Assembly (NCBI RefSeq): GCF_015500095.1
Contig: NZ_CP062983.1
Span: 5,456,001-5,520,000 of the forward strand
Length of the DNA: 64,000 nt
Direction of reading: 5' to 3'
Source of the DNA: Phototrophicus methaneseepsis
GTDB lineage: Bacteria > Chloroflexota > Anaerolineae > Aggregatilineales > Phototrophicaceae
Shown: positions 4,918-55,785 of the stretch, one piece after another
How the letters are laid out: each line of letters starts with the position of its first letter
How positions within the stretch are numbered: position 1 is the first letter of the stretch
Notes under the pieces: model-generated
Told to the model about the DNA's origin: nothing
The model's database searches: none
The model's input: the letters and a program-made list of their open reading frames with translations, nothing else
Made by a program: the position numbers and the translations under genes

Positions 4918-5550
4918 ATGACATTGCAAACCACAGAAAAAAAGAATCTTTCTGATAACGGAACTGATAACGGAAAACCAGCCCCCGCGCTGATCATCTT
5001 TGCGGTTATTCCGCTCGTTGGCATCCTGATTGCGCTGCTGATGATCGCAACGCAAGACCAGAGCCAGGGCATCACAGCGGACGTGCTCAGCAGTGAGCGC
5101 AGCGGCAATACACTGGTAAACCAGCAAGCACCTTATTTCGAACTGTTCGATATGGATGGGAATCCCATCACGTTGGACGACTATGCAGGTAAGACGCTGT
5201 TCCTCAACTTTTGGCAGACGACATGCCCGCCCTGCGTGAGAGAACTACCCGCATTCACCCATTTTGTTGAGGATACGGTGGGGCAGGATGTGGCTGTGCT
5301 GGCCGTCAACTTTGACGAAACGAGCGAGCAAGTCCGTGAATTCCTGGCGCAGTACGATATTGTCGGGCTGCCCGTCGGCATGGACCCCACCAGCGACGTG
5401 CGCCGCACCTATGGTGTACACGACATCCCGACGACCTTTGTCATCGACGGTGAGGGCAAAGTGCGTTTTTGGAAGTTGGGCGAGATGGACATCTTTGAGA
5501 TGGAAGAATACGCCCAGCTTGTTGAAGAAGGCGTCACCGTACCGGGTTAA
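4918..5550 (+). CDS. Membrane-anchored TlpA/ResA-like thioredoxin
   Basis: A 210-residue thiol-disulfide oxidoreductase. Residues 24-44 form one transmembrane helix (ALIIFAVIPLVGILIALLMIA) that places the thioredoxin domain outside the cytoplasm. The domain begins with the AhpC/TlpA signature APYFELFDMDGNPITLDDYAGK and has the redox motif CPPC (C103, C106) after LFLNFWQTT. The cis-Pro is in DIPTTF, and VIDGEGKVRF is the usual beta strand. Likely roles are cytochrome c maturation or reduction of extracytoplasmic disulfides. The ribosome site before ATG 4918 is weak, but no later start keeps the anchor. A second thioredoxin gene lies about 0.8 kb downstream. Confidence 0.9.
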   Translation: MTLQTTEKKNLSDNGTDNGKPAPALIIFAVIPLVGILIALLMIATQDQSQGITADVLSSERSGNTLVNQQAPYFELFDMDGNPITLDDYAGKTLFLNFWQTTCPPCVRELPAFTHFVEDTVGQDVAVLAVNFDETSEQVREFLAQYDIVGLPVGMDPTSDVRRTYGVHDIPTTFVIDGEGKVRFWKLGEMDIFEMEEYAQLVEEGVTVPG

Positions 5551-5582
5551 CGCCCTATACGCCATTGCTCATTACGCCATCA

Positions 5583-5616
5583 ATCGTTGCATCATGATGA
5601 AACATGATGCAACGAT
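5583..5616. terminator. Strong hairpin between convergent genes
   Basis: ATCGTTGCATCATG (5583-5596) pairs perfectly over 14 bases with 5603-5616 around a six-base loop. No long T run follows on either strand, so it is an atypical terminator or an mRNA-stability hairpin between the TlpA-like gene and the convergent membrane gene. Confidence 0.5.
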
Positions 5617-5669
5617 GAGGTTATTGAGTTGTTTATGCCAGCCTGAAGCAAGGCCCTATTTGTACGGCC

Positions 5670-6191
5670 CTATCCTGCACTGTATTCCAGGTCCTGGCAG
5701 CGCAAAAACCGCCGGATCGTGTCGCGCAGGGAGATGACTTCACGCTCTTCATCCATTGGCAGCATCGCCAGGGGTACATGGGTATGGTCACGCAGCAGGA
5801 ATGACAGCCCAAAAACGCGAAGTTTCCTATCTGGGCATACATCCACACAGATCATCGCATAAATAGGCACTTCCCGCTGTATCATGTGGAAGCCATCCGG
5901 GCGATTGACCGTCACCGTCTCGGCATCGCGGTCAAAAACGCACAAAGTCCCCTTCAGATTTCCATAACAGGATTCGGCCCCAATCCGGCCAATAACGAAC
6001 ATCAAGGCCATCCATAAGAGCCAGCTCAGGAAGCTAAAGACATTGAATCTTTGGAAATGGCTCAGCCCGTAGATCGCAATATTGATCAAAATCCACGCAC
6101 AGAGTAATGTAAAAAGCGCCATCGAAACCGCAAAAAACGGGCGACGGCGCTCTATGACTAAACGTGTTTTCGTATGTTCTATAACTTGCAT
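5670..6191 (-). CDS. Two-helix membrane protein with a PH-like cytosolic part
   Basis: A 173-residue protein. Two hydrophobic helices (FFAVSMALFTLLCAWILINIAI, and the region around FSFLSWLLWMALMFVIG) are followed by a soluble tail with FDRDAETVTVNRPDG and REVPIYAMICVDV. That order, two helices then a strand-rich tail, resembles small bacterial membrane proteins with a PH-like (YdbT/YcxB-type) domain. AGGA precedes ATG 6191 by about 8 bases. It lies convergent to the TlpA-like gene and divergent from the two-domain thioredoxin. No catalytic residues are visible. The family call is tentative. Confidence 0.65.
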   Translation of the reverse strand: MQVIEHTKTRLVIERRRPFFAVSMALFTLLCAWILINIAIYGLSHFQRFNVFSFLSWLLWMALMFVIGRIGAESCYGNLKGTLCVFDRDAETVTVNRPDGFHMIQREVPIYAMICVDVCPDRKLRVFGLSFLLRDHTHVPLAMLPMDEEREVISLRDTIRRFLRCQDLEYSAG

Positions 6192-6333
6192 ACCAGCAAT
6201 CCTATCGTTACAACCTCAGTCTATGCTGAATCAATGGCTGCCGTATGTGAAAAATGTCACATGAAGTAAACTCGAACGTACCCACTGCGTCTAGAAGTGA
6301 GTAGATAAATACGTAAACGATCAGGATAAACAA

Positions 6334-7023
6334 ATGGCCGTGTTCGATACGCCCCTTACAACCGATAGCGCACACATCGCAGCCATCCTCAACCAAAAGC
6401 TACCTGTCATGCTGGTGTTACACGAAGATCAGCGTGACAAACCCCTTGAAGATGCCCTGAACAAAGTGGCGCGTAAGCATAAAGGCAACTTGCTCGTCGC
6501 CAAAGTCGATGTGCGGGAAAATGCTGATTTACACGCAAAGCATAACCATATCGCCACACCTGCCATTATTAGCTATGATGCCAATGGTAAAATTCTCGCC
6601 CAGGCGGATTACGTCCGACCTGCGGACGTGCGCCAGCATACCGCGCTGCTCATCAACGGAACGCCCATCGAGGCACCGCAGTCTCAACGGGAGCGCACCT
6701 CATCAGAGCCCATCAACGTCAGCGATAAGACATGGCGAGACGAGGTGCTTAAGAGCAGCGTCCCCGTACTTGTCGATTTTTGGGCGCCATGGTGTGGGCC
6801 GTGCCGCAGCATCGCCCCTTATGTTGAGCAACTCGCCAAAGAATATGCGGGTCGCTTAAAAGTGGTCAAGCTCAACACAGATAACAATCCCGTCATTTCT
6901 AGGCGGCATGGGATACAGGGCATTCCGACCCTGGCTATCTTCGAAAATGGGCAGCAGGTCAACCGTATAAGCGGGGCGAACCCTGCCGGACTCAAGAGGA
7001 TGGTGGAACAGGCCCTGGCATAG
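6334..7023 (+). CDS. Thioredoxin with an extra degenerate N-terminal thioredoxin fold
   Basis: A 229-residue cytosolic protein with two thioredoxin folds in tandem. The C-terminal domain (about 125-229) is a complete thioredoxin, with FWAPWCGPC (C154, C157), the cis-Pro in GIPTL, and a final GANPAGLK helix. The N-terminal domain (about 1-110) keeps the strand order VMLVLHED, LLVAKVDV and the cis-Pro ATPAI, but the CxxC position reads HEDQRD, so it cannot do dithiol chemistry. It may bind substrate or mediate dimerisation. The stop is 10 bases from the stop of the convergent WD40 gene. Two-fold thioredoxins of this kind recall the CnoX/YbbN chaperedoxin idea, but no TPR tail is present. Confidence 0.88.
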   Translation: MAVFDTPLTTDSAHIAAILNQKLPVMLVLHEDQRDKPLEDALNKVARKHKGNLLVAKVDVRENADLHAKHNHIATPAIISYDANGKILAQADYVRPADVRQHTALLINGTPIEAPQSQRERTSSEPINVSDKTWRDEVLKSSVPVLVDFWAPWCGPCRSIAPYVEQLAKEYAGRLKVVKLNTDNNPVISRRHGIQGIPTLAIFENGQQVNRISGANPAGLKRMVEQALA

Positions 7024-21824: not shown

Positions 21825-22205
21825 ATGTATCACCTCGAATGGAAAATTCCAGAGATTGTCCTACACATAAAATATTGGGACATCCTCAGCCTGAGTGACT
21901 TGATGGCTGCTATGACCATTCTCAAAGAAGACTATCTCGACCATAGTGCGGAACCGATTCACCTGATTCTTGATCTATCCGAACTCAAAGTGTTCCCCAA
22001 GCGCATGCCCGACCTCCATAAGGCGATGGGCATCATTGCAGGCCATAGCAACATGGGATGGGTCATCATTGTGGGCTTCCTCAACCCTGTACTGAACTTC
22101 ATCGCCTCTTTGCTGACGCAGATTTACAATGTCCACCTCACGTCAGAGCCAGATATGGAGCGTGCCCTGGCAACACTCCGCCGCATTGATACCCGCCTCT
22201 TATAA
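21825..22205 (+). CDS. STAS-like (SpoIIAA-fold) small protein, paralog 1
   Basis: A 126-residue cytosolic protein. Strand-helix order (LEWKIPEIVLHIKYW, LSLSDLMAAM, PIHLILDLSELKVFPKR, then a helix and MGWVIIVGFLNPVLNF) resembles single STAS/SpoIIAA-like domains, though the classical phosphorylatable Ser motif D-S-G is not obvious (DLSELK at that position). It aligns with the gene at 23603 in its second half: G-W-I-VGF-NPV--F--S-L-Q--N, then a C-terminal LRRID. GAGGA lies before the ATG at 21825. It sits upstream of a terpene synthase gene after an AT-rich gap. Role unknown. Confidence 0.72.
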   Translation: MYHLEWKIPEIVLHIKYWDILSLSDLMAAMTILKEDYLDHSAEPIHLILDLSELKVFPKRMPDLHKAMGIIAGHSNMGWVIIVGFLNPVLNFIASLLTQIYNVHLTSEPDMERALATLRRIDTRLL

Positions 22206-22580: not shown

Positions 22581-23570
22581 ATGGATGCAAAGACTACCCG
22601 GTTGATGAGCTTATCGGATGTTTGCAAAATTGGCCCTAAGGCTGTCAATCCACATGCGGATGAAGCTCAGGCACGGTCCAAACAAATTTGTGAACAAGCT
22701 GGTATCTATATTCCCTCATTTGAAAACTACACGACCATGAGCGGCTATCTCTACCCGGAAGCCAGCATGGAACGATTGGTCGTGTTGATCACAGTGACCA
22801 ATATGCTTTACTATGCTGATGAGGTCTATGAACGCCACGCTCGCCAGGACCCGGACCCTGCAGAAGATGCACGGCTGAGGGCACTCTTCGAGCAGACAAT
22901 TGAGGGCATCATAACCGGTGAAGTACCTCACGAAGATGAACCACTCTATCGTGGGGCTCTTGCAATCCATAAAGCGATGACGCCGCTCACACATATCTCC
23001 TGGGTAAAAAAGCTGATCCCAGCCCTGGTTGAGCATCTTAATTCGACGACCTATAAACTTGAGGATATACTACAAAAAGAGGGTGGTGATCCTCTTGAAC
23101 GATACATTGCATTACGAGAACTTGATGGCGGGATGCGCCCGACAATCCGTATGATTGAGTTTGCAAATGACTTTTATCTCACGGATGAGCTCAGATCACA
23201 TCCATTCATTCAGAGCATAGAAGCACCAACGGTGAGTGTCGGTGGCCTGCTTAACGACATTTTCTCTTATGAGAAAGAAGTGCTGGCTTACGACTCGCGA
23301 TTTAACCTCGTGGCTGTCTTCGAAGACTACTATGATCTTCCGTTTGAACACGCAGTGCATAAAGCTGTTGAGGTCGTTAACAACCATATTGCGGCATTCC
23401 TAGCTTTGGAGCAGTCTATCCCGGTATGGGAGGACCCCAAAACCAATGAAATCGTTCGTCGATATGTGAAAGGCCTGAGAGATCAGATTAAAGCAGCGTG
23501 GTACTGGCAATTATCAACTGATCGATATCGTTCCAAGACATCACCATTCCCGGAATTACGTATGACCTAA
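22581..23570 (+). CDS. Class I terpene synthase (terpene cyclase)
   Basis: A 329-residue protein, the normal length for a bacterial terpene cyclase. All class I landmarks can be placed. There is an acid-rich first motif at residues 80-84 (DEVYE, a variant of DDxx(D/E)), and a candidate diphosphate-sensor Arg169 lies 46 residues before the metal triad, the usual distance. The NSE triad is N215, S219 and E223 in NDIFSYEKE, and a C-terminal Arg-Tyr pair is at 315-316. It would cyclise a linear prenyl diphosphate (C10-C20); the product cannot be read from sequence. AGGAGG precedes ATG 22581. It is flanked by two paralogous STAS-like genes in the same direction. Confidence 0.9.
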   Translation: MDAKTTRLMSLSDVCKIGPKAVNPHADEAQARSKQICEQAGIYIPSFENYTTMSGYLYPEASMERLVVLITVTNMLYYADEVYERHARQDPDPAEDARLRALFEQTIEGIITGEVPHEDEPLYRGALAIHKAMTPLTHISWVKKLIPALVEHLNSTTYKLEDILQKEGGDPLERYIALRELDGGMRPTIRMIEFANDFYLTDELRSHPFIQSIEAPTVSVGGLLNDIFSYEKEVLAYDSRFNLVAVFEDYYDLPFEHAVHKAVEVVNNHIAAFLALEQSIPVWEDPKTNEIVRRYVKGLRDQIKAAWYWQLSTDRYRSKTSPFPELRMT

Positions 23571-23602: not shown

Positions 23603-24013
23603 ATGGCTGCTGAACGGACAGGTTATTTTAAATCTTCCTGGTTACAGGAAAAACGAATTGCCTATATCGAGCTTATTGGCAAATTTGACGAACAACTCGT
23701 GATTGATGTCAATGAGCATATGCGATCGCTGATCGACGAAGGCATGCGCCCTGTGCATCTGGTATTGGATGCAACGGGCCTGACGGGCTATCCCGTCAAT
23801 GTGCGCGTCCTCAAGCAAAGCTCGGAGGCTTCTGCAAGTCATCCAGACGTGGGATGGCTTATTTTGATTGGCTTCACGAATCCGGTCATTAAGTTCTTCT
23901 CGTCTGTGCTGGCACAGTTGTTCAACCTCAACTTTAAACAGGCGGAATCCACAGAAGAGGCTGTTTCTATCCTGCGTCGGGTGGATATCACCATCGAAAC
24001 ACCGGCAGAATAA
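23603..24013 (+). CDS. STAS-like (SpoIIAA-fold) small protein, paralog 2
   Basis: A 136-residue protein, 32 bases after the terpene synthase stop and in the same direction, so probably co-transcribed with it. It has the layout SWLQEKRIAYIELIGKFD, a helix, then PVHLVLDATGLTGYPV, VGWLILIGFTNPVIKFFSS and a final AVSILRRVD. The gene at 21825 shares the same blocks, with strongest similarity in the VGW-I-IGF-NPV segment. A single STAS-like domain with no partner domain suggests a protein-binding or regulatory role. GGGG precedes ATG 23603 weakly. A terminator follows 83 bases after the stop. Confidence 0.75.
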   Translation: MAAERTGYFKSSWLQEKRIAYIELIGKFDEQLVIDVNEHMRSLIDEGMRPVHLVLDATGLTGYPVNVRVLKQSSEASASHPDVGWLILIGFTNPVIKFFSSVLAQLFNLNFKQAESTEEAVSILRRVDITIETPAE

Positions 24014-24348: not shown

Positions 24349-25479
24349 ATGAGCAAACGGCCAGCCGTGTATCCCTTCACCGCCATCGTCGGACAAGATC
24401 TGATGCGGCTCGCATTGGTCCTCAACGCCATTGATATGCGTATTGGTGGTGTCCTCATCCGCGGTGAACGCGGCACCGGTAAGTCGACCGCGGCCCGTGC
24501 GCTGGCGGCCCTGCTACCGGAAATCGAAGTCGTGGTCGATTCACCCTTTAACGACGATCCCGCTCGCCCAGACACATGGTCTGATATCACCACAGAGCGC
24601 TATGCAAATGCGGAAGAAATCCCGTATGAGTTCGCGAAAGCGCCTTTCGTCGACCTGCCTGTGAGCGCGACAGAAGACCGCGTTGTGGGTACGCTTGACA
24701 TTGAAAAAGCCATCCAAAAAGGTGAGAAGCAGTTCGAGCCAGGGATTCTGGCCTCAGCAAATCGTGGCATCCTGTATGTTGATGAAGTTAACCTGCTGGA
24801 TGATCACATTGTGGACTTGCTGCTGGACAGTGCCGCGATGGGTGTCAACGTGGTTGAACGCGAAGGTATCAGTTTCAGCCATCCGGCTCGGTTCATCCTC
24901 GTCGGCACAATGAACCCGGAAGAAGGCGACCTGCGCCCGCAGCTGCTGGACCGCTTCGCCCTCTCGGTTGATGTGCGCGGCATCCACAATGCCCAGGAAC
25001 GTATCGAAATCCTGGAGCGGCATATCGCTTATGAAGACAATATGCAGGCCTTCCATGCGCATTGGCAGCCCGCAGAGCAGAGCCTTTCTGAGCGTATTGC
25101 TGCCGCCCGCCAACTCGTCGACAGCGTCAAACATACGTCAAACGACCTGCGCTTAATCGCCAGCATGATGGCTGAGATGCAGATTGACGGCCACCGTGCG
25201 GATCTTGTGATCCTCAAGACGGCCCGTGCCCATGCTGCCTACGAAGGCCGCAATCACATCACGGACCGCGATATTGCCCTGGCGATTAAACTGGCAATCC
25301 CGCACCGTCTGAAGCGTGGGCCTTTCGCAGATGCAACGGCTGAACTTGATCAGGTAGAAGATCGCCTGCAAGAGAAGCGCGAAGAAATAGGCGAAGACGA
25401 AGAAAACGAGAGCACCGAACCGGGCGAAAACACAGGCGAAAACGAAAGCGCCAACAGTAAAAAAAAAGTGAGCAAGTAG
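24349..25479 (+). CDS. Magnesium/cobalt chelatase AAA+ subunit (ChlI/BchI-like), unshifted product
   Basis: A 376-residue product. ATG 24349 is chosen because AGAGAGG lies 8 bases upstream; a GTG three codons earlier lacks such spacing. The AAA+ core has FTAIVGQDLMRLALVLNA, Walker A GERGTGKST, Walker B ILYVDEVNLLDD, GTMNPEEGDLRPQLLDRF (sensor and Arg-finger region) and a C-terminal helical lid. An acidic tail (EDEENESTEPGENTGENE) leads to nine A residues and then a stop. Chelatase I subunits hydrolyse ATP to drive Mg or Co insertion into a tetrapyrrole. In the -1 frame the A9 tract opens directly into a VWA domain, so a fused 696-residue protein is also possible. No chlH or cobN is in the window. 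Confidence 0.93.
   Translation: MSKRPAVYPFTAIVGQDLMRLALVLNAIDMRIGGVLIRGERGTGKSTAARALAALLPEIEVVVDSPFNDDPARPDTWSDITTERYANAEEIPYEFAKAPFVDLPVSATEDRVVGTLDIEKAIQKGEKQFEPGILASANRGILYVDEVNLLDDHIVDLLLDSAAMGVNVVEREGISFSHPARFILVGTMNPEEGDLRPQLLDRFALSVDVRGIHNAQERIEILERHIAYEDNMQAFHAHWQPAEQSLSERIAAARQLVDSVKHTSNDLRLIASMMAEMQIDGHRADLVILKTARAHAAYEGRNHITDRDIALAIKLAIPHRLKRGPFADATAELDQVEDRLQEKREEIGEDEENESTEPGENTGENESANSKKKVSK
25459..25467 (+). other. A9 slippery tract, candidate -1 frameshift site
   Basis: Nine A residues (three AAA codons in the ChlI frame) sit 9 bases before the ChlI stop TAG. Slipping back by one base moves translation into a frame that is open from the tract itself, is closed just before it by TAA 25458-25460, and reads on to the VWA domain. 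A 6-bp hairpin CTGGCG/CGCCAG (25486-25491 with 25504-25509) begins 18 bases downstream. Programmed frameshifting in chlD-type chelatase genes is known; here it is an inference, and a sequencing or assembly indel in the homopolymer remains possible. Confidence 0.65.
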
Positions 25480-26438
25480 ACGAGACTGGCGCAGAGCAAC
25501 AATCGCCAGATGTCAGCGAACAACCCGCCGCCCCACAAAACCCCTTCCCCAGTGCAGATTCAAACTGGTGGGAAGGCGGCCAAAAAGTGCAGGCGGCGGC
25601 GGAGTTCGAAACCCGCAAGCTCAATACCCAGCTCGACAAGATGACGCGGCGGCAATCTGGCCGACGTTCCACAACGCGTACCGATCGCAAACGCGGGCGC
25701 TACATCCGGGCAGTGCCAGCCGGCAACAACACCAGCGACATCGCCTTTGATGCCACCCTGCGCGCTGCTGCCCCCTACCAACTGGGCCGGGCGGAACAAA
25801 AAGCCGAGACAGGCATGGCTTATGCCCTGCGTAAGAGTGACCTCCAGCGCAAAATCCGCGTGAAAAAGGCTAGCAACCTGGTGCTGTTCACAGTCGACGC
25901 CAGTTGGAGTATGGCCGTTAGCGAGCGTATGCAGGCCACAAAAGGCGCGATTATGTCGCTGCTGACGGATGCCTATCAACGCCGTGACCGCGTGGGGCTG
26001 ATTGTCTTCCAAAAAGACCGGGCCTCATTGGTGCTGCCACCTACCAACAGCGTCACACTGGCTAAAGAAGCCCTGGTTGATATTCCCGTTGGTGGTAAAA
26101 CGCCGCTCTCAGCGGGGCTGCTGCTGGCTTATGAGACGGTCCGCAAAGAGAAGCTCAACATGCCAGACATCATGCCTATGATCATCCTGCTGACGGATGG
26201 CGCGGGTAATGTGAGCCTGAGCGAGAACACGTCGCCCCAGGAAGAAGCCCACATGATTGCACGCCTCATCAAAGAAGCCGACATCCGCACCGTCACCGTG
26301 AATATGGAGCATGTCGCCTTCGATCAAGGGTTGGCCCAACGCCTCGCGGATCAACTCGGTGGCCCATGTTACGCCCTCTCCCAAATCCGCGCCGATAACC
26401 TGCTAGAAACCGTGCGTATGGAGATGGATAAAGTCTAG
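25467..26438 (+). CDS. Chelatase VWA subunit/domain (ChlD-like), read in the -1 frame
   Basis: A 323-residue segment in the -1 frame relative to ChlI. It begins with a Pro/Gln/Glu-rich linker (SEQVDETGAEQQ, PAAPQNPFPSADSNWWEGG) like the acidic-proline linker of ChlD proteins. It continues with a basic segment and a von Willebrand factor A domain: LVLFTVDASWSMAVSERM with the MIDAS DxSxS, a T-containing loop in GGKTPLSAGLLL and IILLTDGAGNVSLS. No start codon with a ribosome site lies in the first part; a GTG at 25587 would remove the linker. This suggests it is made as an extension of ChlI rather than alone. It would couple the ATPase ring to the metal-inserting subunit. Confidence 0.88.
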   Translation, partial: SEQVDETGAEQQSPDVSEQPAAPQNPFPSADSNWWEGGQKVQAAAEFETRKLNTQLDKMTRRQSGRRSTTRTDRKRGRYIRAVPAGNNTSDIAFDATLRAAAPYQLGRAEQKAETGMAYALRKSDLQRKIRVKKASNLVLFTVDASWSMAVSERMQATKGAIMSLLTDAYQRRDRVGLIVFQKDRASLVLPPTNSVTLAKEALVDIPVGGKTPLSAGLLLAYETVRKEKLNMPDIMPMIILLTDGAGNVSLSENTSPQEEAHMIARLIKEADIRTVTVNMEHVAFDQGLAQRLADQLGGPCYALSQIRADNLLETVRMEMDKV

Positions 26439-26468: not shown

Positions 26469-26504
26469 AAAACAGCGTAGGGATTGCCTTACGCTGTTTT
26501 TATT
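26469..26504 (+). terminator. Terminator of the chelatase transcript
   Basis: AAAACAGCGTAGGG (26469-26482) pairs with CCTTACGCTGTTTT (26487-26500), one G-T pair, loop ATTG, then TATTT. Its position after the VWA frame shows that both parts share one transcript. Confidence 0.85.
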
Positions 26505-54543: not shown

Positions 54544-55785
54544 ATGCCGCCACAAAATGACGAAGAACGCGCCGAACTCGACCGCTTGATTACACAGATG
54601 CGGGAAGGCAAGCGGGATTTTGAGAACGAGAAGAACGATGAAGTTGTTCAGGCTATCACACTCTTACGTGAGCGAGGTTGGTTTACTGACGGGGCACAAT
54701 ACAGAGCTGAGCTGAGAAGAGCTGAGAAGAGATGGACTGATCTAATTGGGGCTGATCTGAGATGGACTGATCTGAGGGGAGCTAATCTAGGTAACGCTGA
54801 TCTGAGTGGAACTAATCTGAGTGACGCTCATCTGATAAGGGCTCATCTGAGTGGCGCTCATCTGAGTAGCGCTGATCTGAGATGGGCTGATCTGAGTGAG
54901 GCTGATCTGCAGGAAGCTGACCTGAGTGAGGCTGATCTGAGGATGGCTGATCTGAGTGGCGCTGATCTGAATGGGGCTCATCTGAGTGGCGCTCATCTGA
55001 GTGGCGCTGATTTGAGTGGTGCTCATCTGAATGGCGCTCATCTCCAGGGCGCAACCATTGGTGGAACAATACTTACAGATATGGATTTATCGGGTTGTAT
55101 CGGTTTGGAAAAGATGAATCATCTTCGCCCAAGTTATATAGATTACACAACCTTTTATAAATCAGGCCCTCTATCGGAAGCCTTTCTTAAAGGTTGCGGT
55201 GTGCCCGAAAATCTCATAACTTTTTTGCCATCCCTTGTATCGAAAGGTATCGAGTTGTTTTCTACGTTTATCAGCTACAGCTACGACAGCCGTAATCCGA
55301 ATGATCCTGGAAATATATTTGCGCAAAAAGTTCATGATTGGTTACAAAAACAAGGTGTTCGCTGCTGGTTAGACAAGCACCAAGTTAACGCAGGTGACTT
55401 TGTGCTGGAAAGCATCGACGAGGGTATAAAAGTCTGGGATAAACTCGTTTTCTGTTGTAACGAGCGCGCTATGAATAGTGAGTGGGTGCGTAAGGAACTG
55501 CGTCGAGCCATTGAAAAAGAAAACGAAACAGAAAAAAAACTAGGGAAGCGGCTTCCCATCATTATCCCACTAAACATGGATGATTATCTATTCAGTGAGG
55601 CTTGTAAAAAACACCCCTATCGATTGGAGCTTGTAGAGCGCAACGCAGTTGACTTTGTTGATTGGGAAGTTGACGAAGATAAATTCCAACATGGTATGGA
55701 ACTCGTCTTACGTGCTTTACGCTTAGATGGCGGCAAGCCCCCCGCACCAGAACCTAAAATTTTCCCGCTAGATGATGACAATTGA
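54544..55785 (+). CDS. Pentapeptide-repeat protein fused to a TIR domain
   Basis: A 413-residue protein with three parts. Residues 1-55 are helical. Residues about 60-185 are some 22 pentapeptide repeats of the A(D/N/H)Lxx type (ADLRW, ANLGN, ADLSG, AHLSG), which fold into a square beta-helix. Residues about 235-395 are a TIR domain: STFISYSYDS, DWLQKQGVRCWLDKHQVNAGDF, and SEWVRKEL with the Trp-x3-Glu motif whose Glu is catalytic in TIR NADases. GAGG precedes ATG 54544. This is a single-gene unit. Likely roles are cell death or signalling through NAD cleavage, with the repeat part as sensor; no partner defence gene is adjacent. Confidence 0.9.
   Translation: MPPQNDEERAELDRLITQMREGKRDFENEKNDEVVQAITLLRERGWFTDGAQYRAELRRAEKRWTDLIGADLRWTDLRGANLGNADLSGTNLSDAHLIRAHLSGAHLSSADLRWADLSEADLQEADLSEADLRMADLSGADLNGAHLSGAHLSGADLSGAHLNGAHLQGATIGGTILTDMDLSGCIGLEKMNHLRPSYIDYTTFYKSGPLSEAFLKGCGVPENLITFLPSLVSKGIELFSTFISYSYDSRNPNDPGNIFAQKVHDWLQKQGVRCWLDKHQVNAGDFVLESIDEGIKVWDKLVFCCNERAMNSEWVRKELRRAIEKENETEKKLGKRLPIIIPLNMDDYLFSEACKKHPYRLELVERNAVDFVDWEVDEDKFQHGMELVLRALRLDGGKPPAPEPKIFPLDDDN
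54721..55068 (+). repeat. DNA-level tandem repeat inside the pentapeptide-repeat gene
   Basis: A 15-base unit close to GCTGATCTGAGTGGC (also with GCTCATCTGAG) recurs some 20 times. The units differ little at DNA level, so the array is recent or kept uniform and could change length by recombination. Confidence 0.8.

Follow-up and report, generated by a model that had tools for sequence, protein, structure and literature searches.

A stretch of 64,000 nucleotides from the Phototrophicus methaneseepsis genome (a single contig of 5,631,885 bases), hereafter referred to as the window, carries a ChlI-like AAA+ frame and a ChlD-like VWA frame that meet at a run of nine A residues. The arrangement raises the question of whether the locus is a damaged gene, two separate genes or one gene with two products and, in the last case, which machine slips on the run. 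A programmed -1 frameshift giving a 376-residue ATPase and a 696-residue fusion had been proposed earlier from the letters of the DNA (the sequence-only reading), and a base-by-base check confirmed the coordinates, both product lengths, the tract and both frames. The A9 is preceded by T, followed by G and read AAA AAA AAA in the AAA+ frame, which extends from ATG 24349 to TAG 25477-25479, so that its stop starts 9 bases past the tract. The VWA part lies in the -1 frame, which is closed by TAA 25458-25460 and then stays open from 25461 to TAG 26436-26438 through a linker into an intact VWA domain, in agreement with the earlier description. The +1 frame is shut directly after the tract by TGA 25469-25471. 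A -1 shift on the A9 gives a stop-free fusion of 696 aa with the predicted junction peptide NSKKKSEQVDETGAEQQ..., and the predicted C-terminus of the 376-residue product is ...SKKKVSK. The features of the locus, in window coordinates, are:

24349..25479, + strand: ChlI-like AAA+ ORF in the 0 frame, 376 aa, ATG preceded by AGAGAGG; matches TIGR02442, TIGR02030, AAA_lid_2 and Mg_chelatase
24463-24489, + strand: Walker A, residues conserved in the 13-row alignment
24772-24786, + strand: Walker B, residues conserved in the 13-row alignment
24952-24954, + strand: conserved Arg of the AAA+ part (13-row alignment)
25458..25460, + strand: TAA ending the -1 (VWA) frame directly ahead of the tract
25459..25467, + strand: A9 slip tract, containing A_AAA_AAA; identical tract in 35/35 recovered family loci
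25461..26438, + strand: VWA (ChlD-like C-terminal) part in the -1 frame, beginning with an acidic linker; matches VWA_2 and TIGR02442
25469..25471, + strand: TGA ending the +1 frame directly past the tract
25477..25479, + strand: 0-frame stop TAG, 9 bases past the tract; in the family its place is fixed and its identity variable
25479..25514, + strand: possible downstream stem-loop with an outer 4-bp and an inner 6-bp stem, which the family does not conserve
25896-25910 (DASWS), 26100 (Thr) and 26196 (Asp), + strand: MIDAS, within the VWA part
26469..26500, + strand: terminator-like stem with T tail 3' of the gene, by consensus match only

Both halves fit a single NCBIfam model, TIGR02442 (putative cobaltochelatase), side by side, the AAA+ part covering model positions 1-355 (E 3e-148) and the VWA part positions 355-640 (E 4.6e-77). 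Scored separately, they reach 495.1 and 259.9 bits, with the family cut-off at 779.45. The AAA+ part also matches TIGR02030 (E 2.2e-123) and lies above the cut-off for AAA_lid_2 and Mg_chelatase; the VWA part matches VWA_2 (E 1.7e-11) and its MIDAS metal-binding motif is complete. Since the 13 aligned rows show no change at the key residues of Walker A, Walker B and MIDAS, the AAA+/VWA motor should, as judged from its sequence, be functional. A single terminator had been proposed to end both products, and a stem with a T tail is indeed present at 26469-26500. However, terminator-like sites are no more frequent in the scanned stretch than expected by chance (3 seen, 2.9 expected), and the assignment stays provisional.

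The main rival named at the outset was a homopolymer read error. The worry was reasonable, since the genome of strain ZRK33 was assembled with Canu from Nanopore R9.4 reads according to the available portion of its genome paper, in whose text the words 'polish' and 'Pilon' are absent (PMC8941918). A pseudogene created by a one-base indel belongs to the same line of explanation. Both were confronted with homologues, collected by a profile search of 61 genomes of the order (the organism's own included) and 150 of the class, after which the loci were fetched and their frames assigned by tblastn. The compared set comprises 191 loci from 188 genomes, after exclusion of L064, whose contig lacks the VWA part, and L027, which duplicates the window locus. 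Three of the 61 order genomes (G025, G034 and G055) and 11 of 141 new class genomes gave no locus, although two of the latter (G120 and G125) show intact full-length matches. The window's family was represented by 37 searched genomes, of which two drafts, 63-68% complete, yielded nothing. In all 35 recovered family loci the run is exactly A9, in the same phase, and the 0-frame stop follows exactly nine bases on. The flanks vary and so does the identity of the stop (TAG in 21, TAA in 8 and TGA in 6 of the 35), while its place is fixed. The alignment of homologues that had been suggested as a check thus came out in favour of a conserved tract. The same A9 and stop recur in 34 other family genes, from other genomes, with both halves intact and their motifs conserved, and this excludes a read error unless all of these loci share it; error or pseudogene formation is the least probable of the explanations weighed here.

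No other A or T run in the window reaches nine. Genome-wide, exact runs number 42 for A8/T8 and two for A9/T9, together with one run of ten. Of the other two long runs, the second A9/T9 falls between two ORFs (L323) and no ORF of 60 aa or longer covers the run of ten (L325), so that the present gene has the only run of this length found within a gene. Under-calling by Nanopore could partly account for the scarcity. Elsewhere in the window, an A8 at 55532-55539 lies in the + strand ORF 54544-55785, named by eye as a pentapeptide-repeat/TIR-like protein, and is read GAA AAA AAA with an in-frame A_AAA_AAA.

Among the matches listed, every genome matched and most hold the gene itself, as a rule divided into two halves in different frames. 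For the 61 order genomes, again among the matches listed, the gene is -1 split in 53, +1 split in 2, in frame in 3 and not recovered in 3, and 18 order genomes beyond the family combine a -1 split with an A8 or A9. Class-wide, the 191 loci divide into 151 with a -1 split, 6 with a +1 split and 34 in-frame genes. The -1 split loci carry runs of A7 (24 loci), A8 (15), A9 (109) or A10 (3). The A7 and A8 runs always end at a codon end, and the A9 runs end 0, 1 or 2 bases past it in 58, 21 and 30 loci, respectively. The linker of 53-74 codons stays open in the -1 frame in 151/151 loci, as against 0/151 and 6/151 for the two remaining frames. A +1 stop lies within 30 nt in 102/109 A9, 14/24 A7 and 13/15 A8 split loci. 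A protein tree (FastTree, 187 of 191 rows) requires at least 16 changes in run length and 22 in split state, and 13 changes in run phase within the -1 split genes. A further 80 named loci (Leptolinea, Caldilineaceae, Roseilinea, Thermoflexus and others) include 48 with a -1 split at 7 to 10 consecutive As; several of the 80 share contigs with the main set and count as extra names, not as independent cases. The remaining named loci come mostly from other phyla than Chloroflexota; in many of them the gene is in frame or the VWA part belongs to a separate gene. Two products are not required everywhere, since some orthologues, such as L009, L083, L084 and L090, are full-length in-frame genes without an A run; these four lineages seem to have given up two-product expression.

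The VWA part could alternatively be a separate protein started within the overlap, by internal initiation or coupling, and the window VWA frame does offer GTG 25587 and ATG 25641. However, a start with a Shine-Dalgarno-like 4-mer is present in 1/35 family genes and 14/151 overall, and 8/35 and 24/151, respectively, have no start codon at all between the tract and the VWA domain, even though the frame is open up to the tract in every one of the 151 genes. An internal start also fits poorly with the existence of intact fusions among the orthologues. Lacking conservation, it was rejected and is considered very unlikely, if not quite as improbable as a sequencing or mutational artefact.

Recoding of chlD at A-runs has reportedly been treated by Antonov (2020, Mol Biol Evol). 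Published accounts from 2013, 2016 and 2022, consulted in part, include examples from Chloroflexi (PMC3711429, PMC5009743, PMC9227772), with Herpetosiphon named in the first and Brevefilum, Anaerolinea, Ornatilinea, Longilinea and Levilinea in the last. In the published genes, designated fs-chlD, a ChlI-like part occupies the 0 frame and the VWA part the -1 frame, with an A-run at the overlap and two inferred products. The window gene has the same layout, with overlapping AAA+ and VWA frames and an A-rich slip site conserved in its orthologues, and the deep conservation of the split and the run places it among genes of this kind. Very probably, then, it is a recoded ChlD-type gene that provides a short motor and a longer, fused form. 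Expression that stays in frame would end at TAG 25477 and give the 376-residue ChlI-like AAA+ ATPase, and a shift to -1 at the A9 would give the 696-residue fusion with the VWA part. That both proteins exist, in some ratio, is suggested by the conservation of the tract, its phase, the domains and both frames. The portions of the fs-chlD accounts consulted here do not name the window gene or its order, and they hold no statement on A9 at all phases, on mirror versions or on a trade between run length and hairpin. The run-length, phase and mirror-design patterns described below are not claimed as unpublished.

As to which machine slips, two mechanisms were weighed, namely slippage of RNA polymerase on the A9, which would leave some of the mRNAs with one A too many, and a -1 slip of the ribosome on A_AAA_AAA. 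A purely ribosomal shift, with RNA polymerase uninvolved, is the published reading of fs-chlD as far as the consulted text of the three accounts goes (PMC3711429, PMC5009743, PMC9227772), and it agrees with the presence of an in-frame A_AAA_AAA in 151/151 -1 split loci and with the restriction of A7 and A8 to positions where the heptamer is in frame. Nevertheless, every A9 contains an in-frame A_AAA_AAA at any phase, and the count of 151 does not therefore in itself favour the ribosome for the A9 genes. The varying phase of the A9 runs, at which the number nine stays, speaks against a purely ribosomal shift and leans towards the polymerase, and so does the absence of A8 at end phase 1 (0/21), where the heptamer would fit. 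The scarcity of A9/T9 beside 42 A8/T8 runs in the genome leans the same way. A run of about nine As is moreover conserved in length among the homologues, in 35/35 family loci and 109/151 class-wide, with A7, A8 and A10 in other lineages; according to the part of PMC1088944 consulted, slippage is very likely the role of a nine-A run whose length is kept among homologues. Reporter frameshifting in magnesium-chelatase fs-genes, as given in the available text of PMC3711429, was 63% with 11 As, 40% with 9 As and 10% with 7 As, tying efficiency to run length in three cassettes that derive from other genes than the window's. Polymerase slippage in chlD was not named in any of the titles or abstract openings found by a literature search.

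RNA structure was the second line of evidence. The sequence-only reading had placed a 6-bp stem 18 bases downstream, and such a stem is present (25486-25491 with 25504-25509), extended by an outer 4-bp stem (25479-25482 with 25511-25514). Over bases 25479-25515 the locus folds with a z of -2.55, which weakens to -1.71 in a 60-nt segment starting at 25473 and to -0.52 in a 100-nt one. Within the family, the stem is recognisable by eye in only 3 of the 35 genes (the window gene, L036 and L035), and no Shine-Dalgarno-like 4-mer was found upstream of the run, at offsets -16 to -3, in the 35 loci. Both the missing upstream element and the weak 3' structure of A9 genes count against a purely ribosomal shift and in favour of the polymerase. 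Across 149 of the 151 -1 split loci, structure peaks in the 60 nt starting 5 nt past the run, with a mean z of -1.18 (se 0.12), as compared with -0.44 to +0.21 for 60-nt windows away from it (offsets -240 to -80 and 40 to 360). The specificity of this downstream peak, which is a point for the ribosome, is weakened by a mean z of -0.92 in the 60-nt window ending with the tract (offset -60). Divided by run length, the A7 genes show pronounced hairpins 3' of the run (mean z -2.62, 71% of 24 below -2), the A8 genes are intermediate (-1.69) and the A9 genes reach -0.96, -0.94 and -0.50 in the three phases (58, 21 and 30 loci). The relation between structure and run length is clear by locus and also by family (5 with A7 against 25 with A9, p 0.007), but it is not significant on tree-independent pairs, of which 4 were supported (b same way 1.3, opposite 0.0, no difference 2.7). 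The A7 versions with strong 3' hairpins fit ribosomal frameshifting, and the A9 versions lean to polymerase slippage.

In-frame genes carry the mirror image of the split design. Among those with a run of at least seven, 23/25 have a -1 stop no more than 26 nt from the run, and a slip there could thus yield a short protein. The in-frame A7 genes keep only this stop near the run (7/7 within 26 nt, with no +1 stop within 30 nt in any of the seven), which suits the ribosome. Conversely, 14/18 in-frame A9/A10 genes have a +1 stop within 9 nt, as against 0/7 of the in-frame A7 genes, and this again leans to the polymerase; the near +1 stops may also be relics of a split ancestor, and a +1 stop within 30 nt is frequent in the A7 and A8 split loci too. 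In their layout the mirror versions resemble the two published dnaX designs, that of E. coli (ribosome) and that of Thermus (RNA polymerase), as presented in the consulted parts of PMC5009743 and PMC1088944. In family f46, two genes (L107 and L157) have an A10 with the VWA part in +1, and a relative (L079) has an A9 in frame. A VWA part in +1 is out of reach of a -1 ribosomal slip in L107 and L157, whereas loss of one A from the mRNA could produce the fusion, and these two genes stand outside an explanation by -1 ribosomal slipping.

In genus g42, one gene (L089) has an A10 in frame and two others (L113 and L117) an A9 split, and the same holds in genus g35 for L010 as opposed to L011 and L019. 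Such differences within a genus could stem from slippage during replication, from a faulty assembly or from a design that is still switching. They are also what would be expected of phase variation, with the A run as a hypermutable DNA switch. Against this, all 35 family loci have exactly A9, 23/25 in-frame run genes keep the short product within reach, and a cytosolic ATPase is, by inference, not of the surface type usual for phase variation. Such a switch is accordingly regarded as highly improbable, even a shade more so than an internal start.

In combination, these observations retain the part of the original proposal that concerns dual products through a shift at the A9, with tract, phase, stop and -1 linker all deeply conserved, and make its ribosomal step one of two candidate mechanisms. 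RNA polymerase slippage on the A9, judged from the sequence comparisons, has about an even chance of being at least a main contributor. A -1 ribosomal slip on A_AAA_AAA is almost as likely, and both may act; that the shift is ribosomal throughout, with no part for the polymerase, is likewise put at somewhat below even. The broadest reading, which falls a little short of even odds as well, is that of one gene in one class: a two-product motor that would have moved between ribosomal (A7 plus hairpin) and polymerase (A9, any phase) mechanisms, and between mirror designs in which a slip gives the long or the short protein, in organisms that lost or never had the large chelatase subunit, the window gene being of the polymerase type.

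Upstream of its slip site, E. coli dnaX uses a Shine-Dalgarno-like element, together with a hairpin. Like the window gene, it has an A-rich heptamer (A_AAA_AAG, ribosomal -1) and short and long forms, but the window's family has neither the upstream element nor a conserved hairpin. The closer likeness in tract is to dnaX of Thermus thermophilus, which, in the source consulted in part (PMC1088944), shares the A9, the nearby stops in other frames and the two lengths of a ring ATPase subunit. The two differ in that the long form is in frame in Thermus and the short form in the window gene, and in that slippage is known for the former and a candidate mechanism for the latter. A sister case in dnaX of the window's own order was rejected, as no A run of at least seven was found in 28 loci (one of them a 176-aa fragment).

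The sequence-only reading had also taken the locus for a chelatase-type ChlI/ChlD gene. The domains and the fs-chlD layout uphold this description, but a chelatase role is doubtful given that no large subunit was found. Six-frame searches of the whole genome gave no match to CobN/ChlH/BchH (PF02514), so that neither CobN, the large subunit of CobNST, nor ChlH/BchH, that of Mg chelatase, was found in the organism's own genome. PF02514 matches occur in 3/61 genomes of the order set and in 18/150 class genomes, 17 of them above the cut-off. Among genomes with a -1 split gene, 16/151 have PF02514 above the cut-off and 135/151 are without it. The motor probably does not serve a Mg- or Co-chelatase here. 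By analogy, it may insert metal into, or remodel, another protein: in NorQ/NorD and other MoxR AAA+/VWA pairs, described in the available text of PMC9976466, an AAA+ ATPase works with a VWA protein, which suggests metal insertion into a partner, though these are different families and two separate proteins where the window has one gene. In the consulted part of Kuznetsov 2022 (PMC9227772), the function in 'stage 1' species, Chloroflexi included, is called unknown.

The neighbourhood, compared over ~17-19 kb stretches from 14 relatives, showed only the gene's own two parts to recur widely; the next largest group gathers ORFs that come from 7/15 regions and differ in position, one of which looks ABC-transporter-like by eye. 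Two small + strand ORFs (window 21825-22205 and 23603-24013), alike by eye, flank a terpene-synthase-like ORF, also named by eye (22581-23570), immediately 5' of the gene. A second ChlI-like AAA+ gene of 388 aa lies at 5465-6631 (-) of L324 (G000:C1 3650997-3652010). It has similar-scoring matches in many of the 61 order genomes, among the matches listed, and inspection by eye of the ORFs of 180 aa or longer within 12 kb showed no VWA neighbour. The organism is in culture, and the available text of PMC8941918 reports that RNA-seq was obtained and that the strain has a type II photosynthetic reaction centre and uses bacteriochlorophyll. The six-frame searches of the whole genome found no Photo_RC (PF00124) either, and the phototrophy claim for the strain deserves a second look.

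For the class as a whole, these results set a recoding system already in print against a broad comparative background, with a slip tract in most of the class copies compared. The two-product design is widely kept among relatives despite the absence of the enzyme's usual partner, which raises the question, posed also in the consulted part of PMC9227772, of what role a ChlI/ChlD motor plays in bacteria without ChlH or CobN. It likewise raises the question of whether orthologous genes swap slipping by the ribosome for slipping by RNA polymerase.
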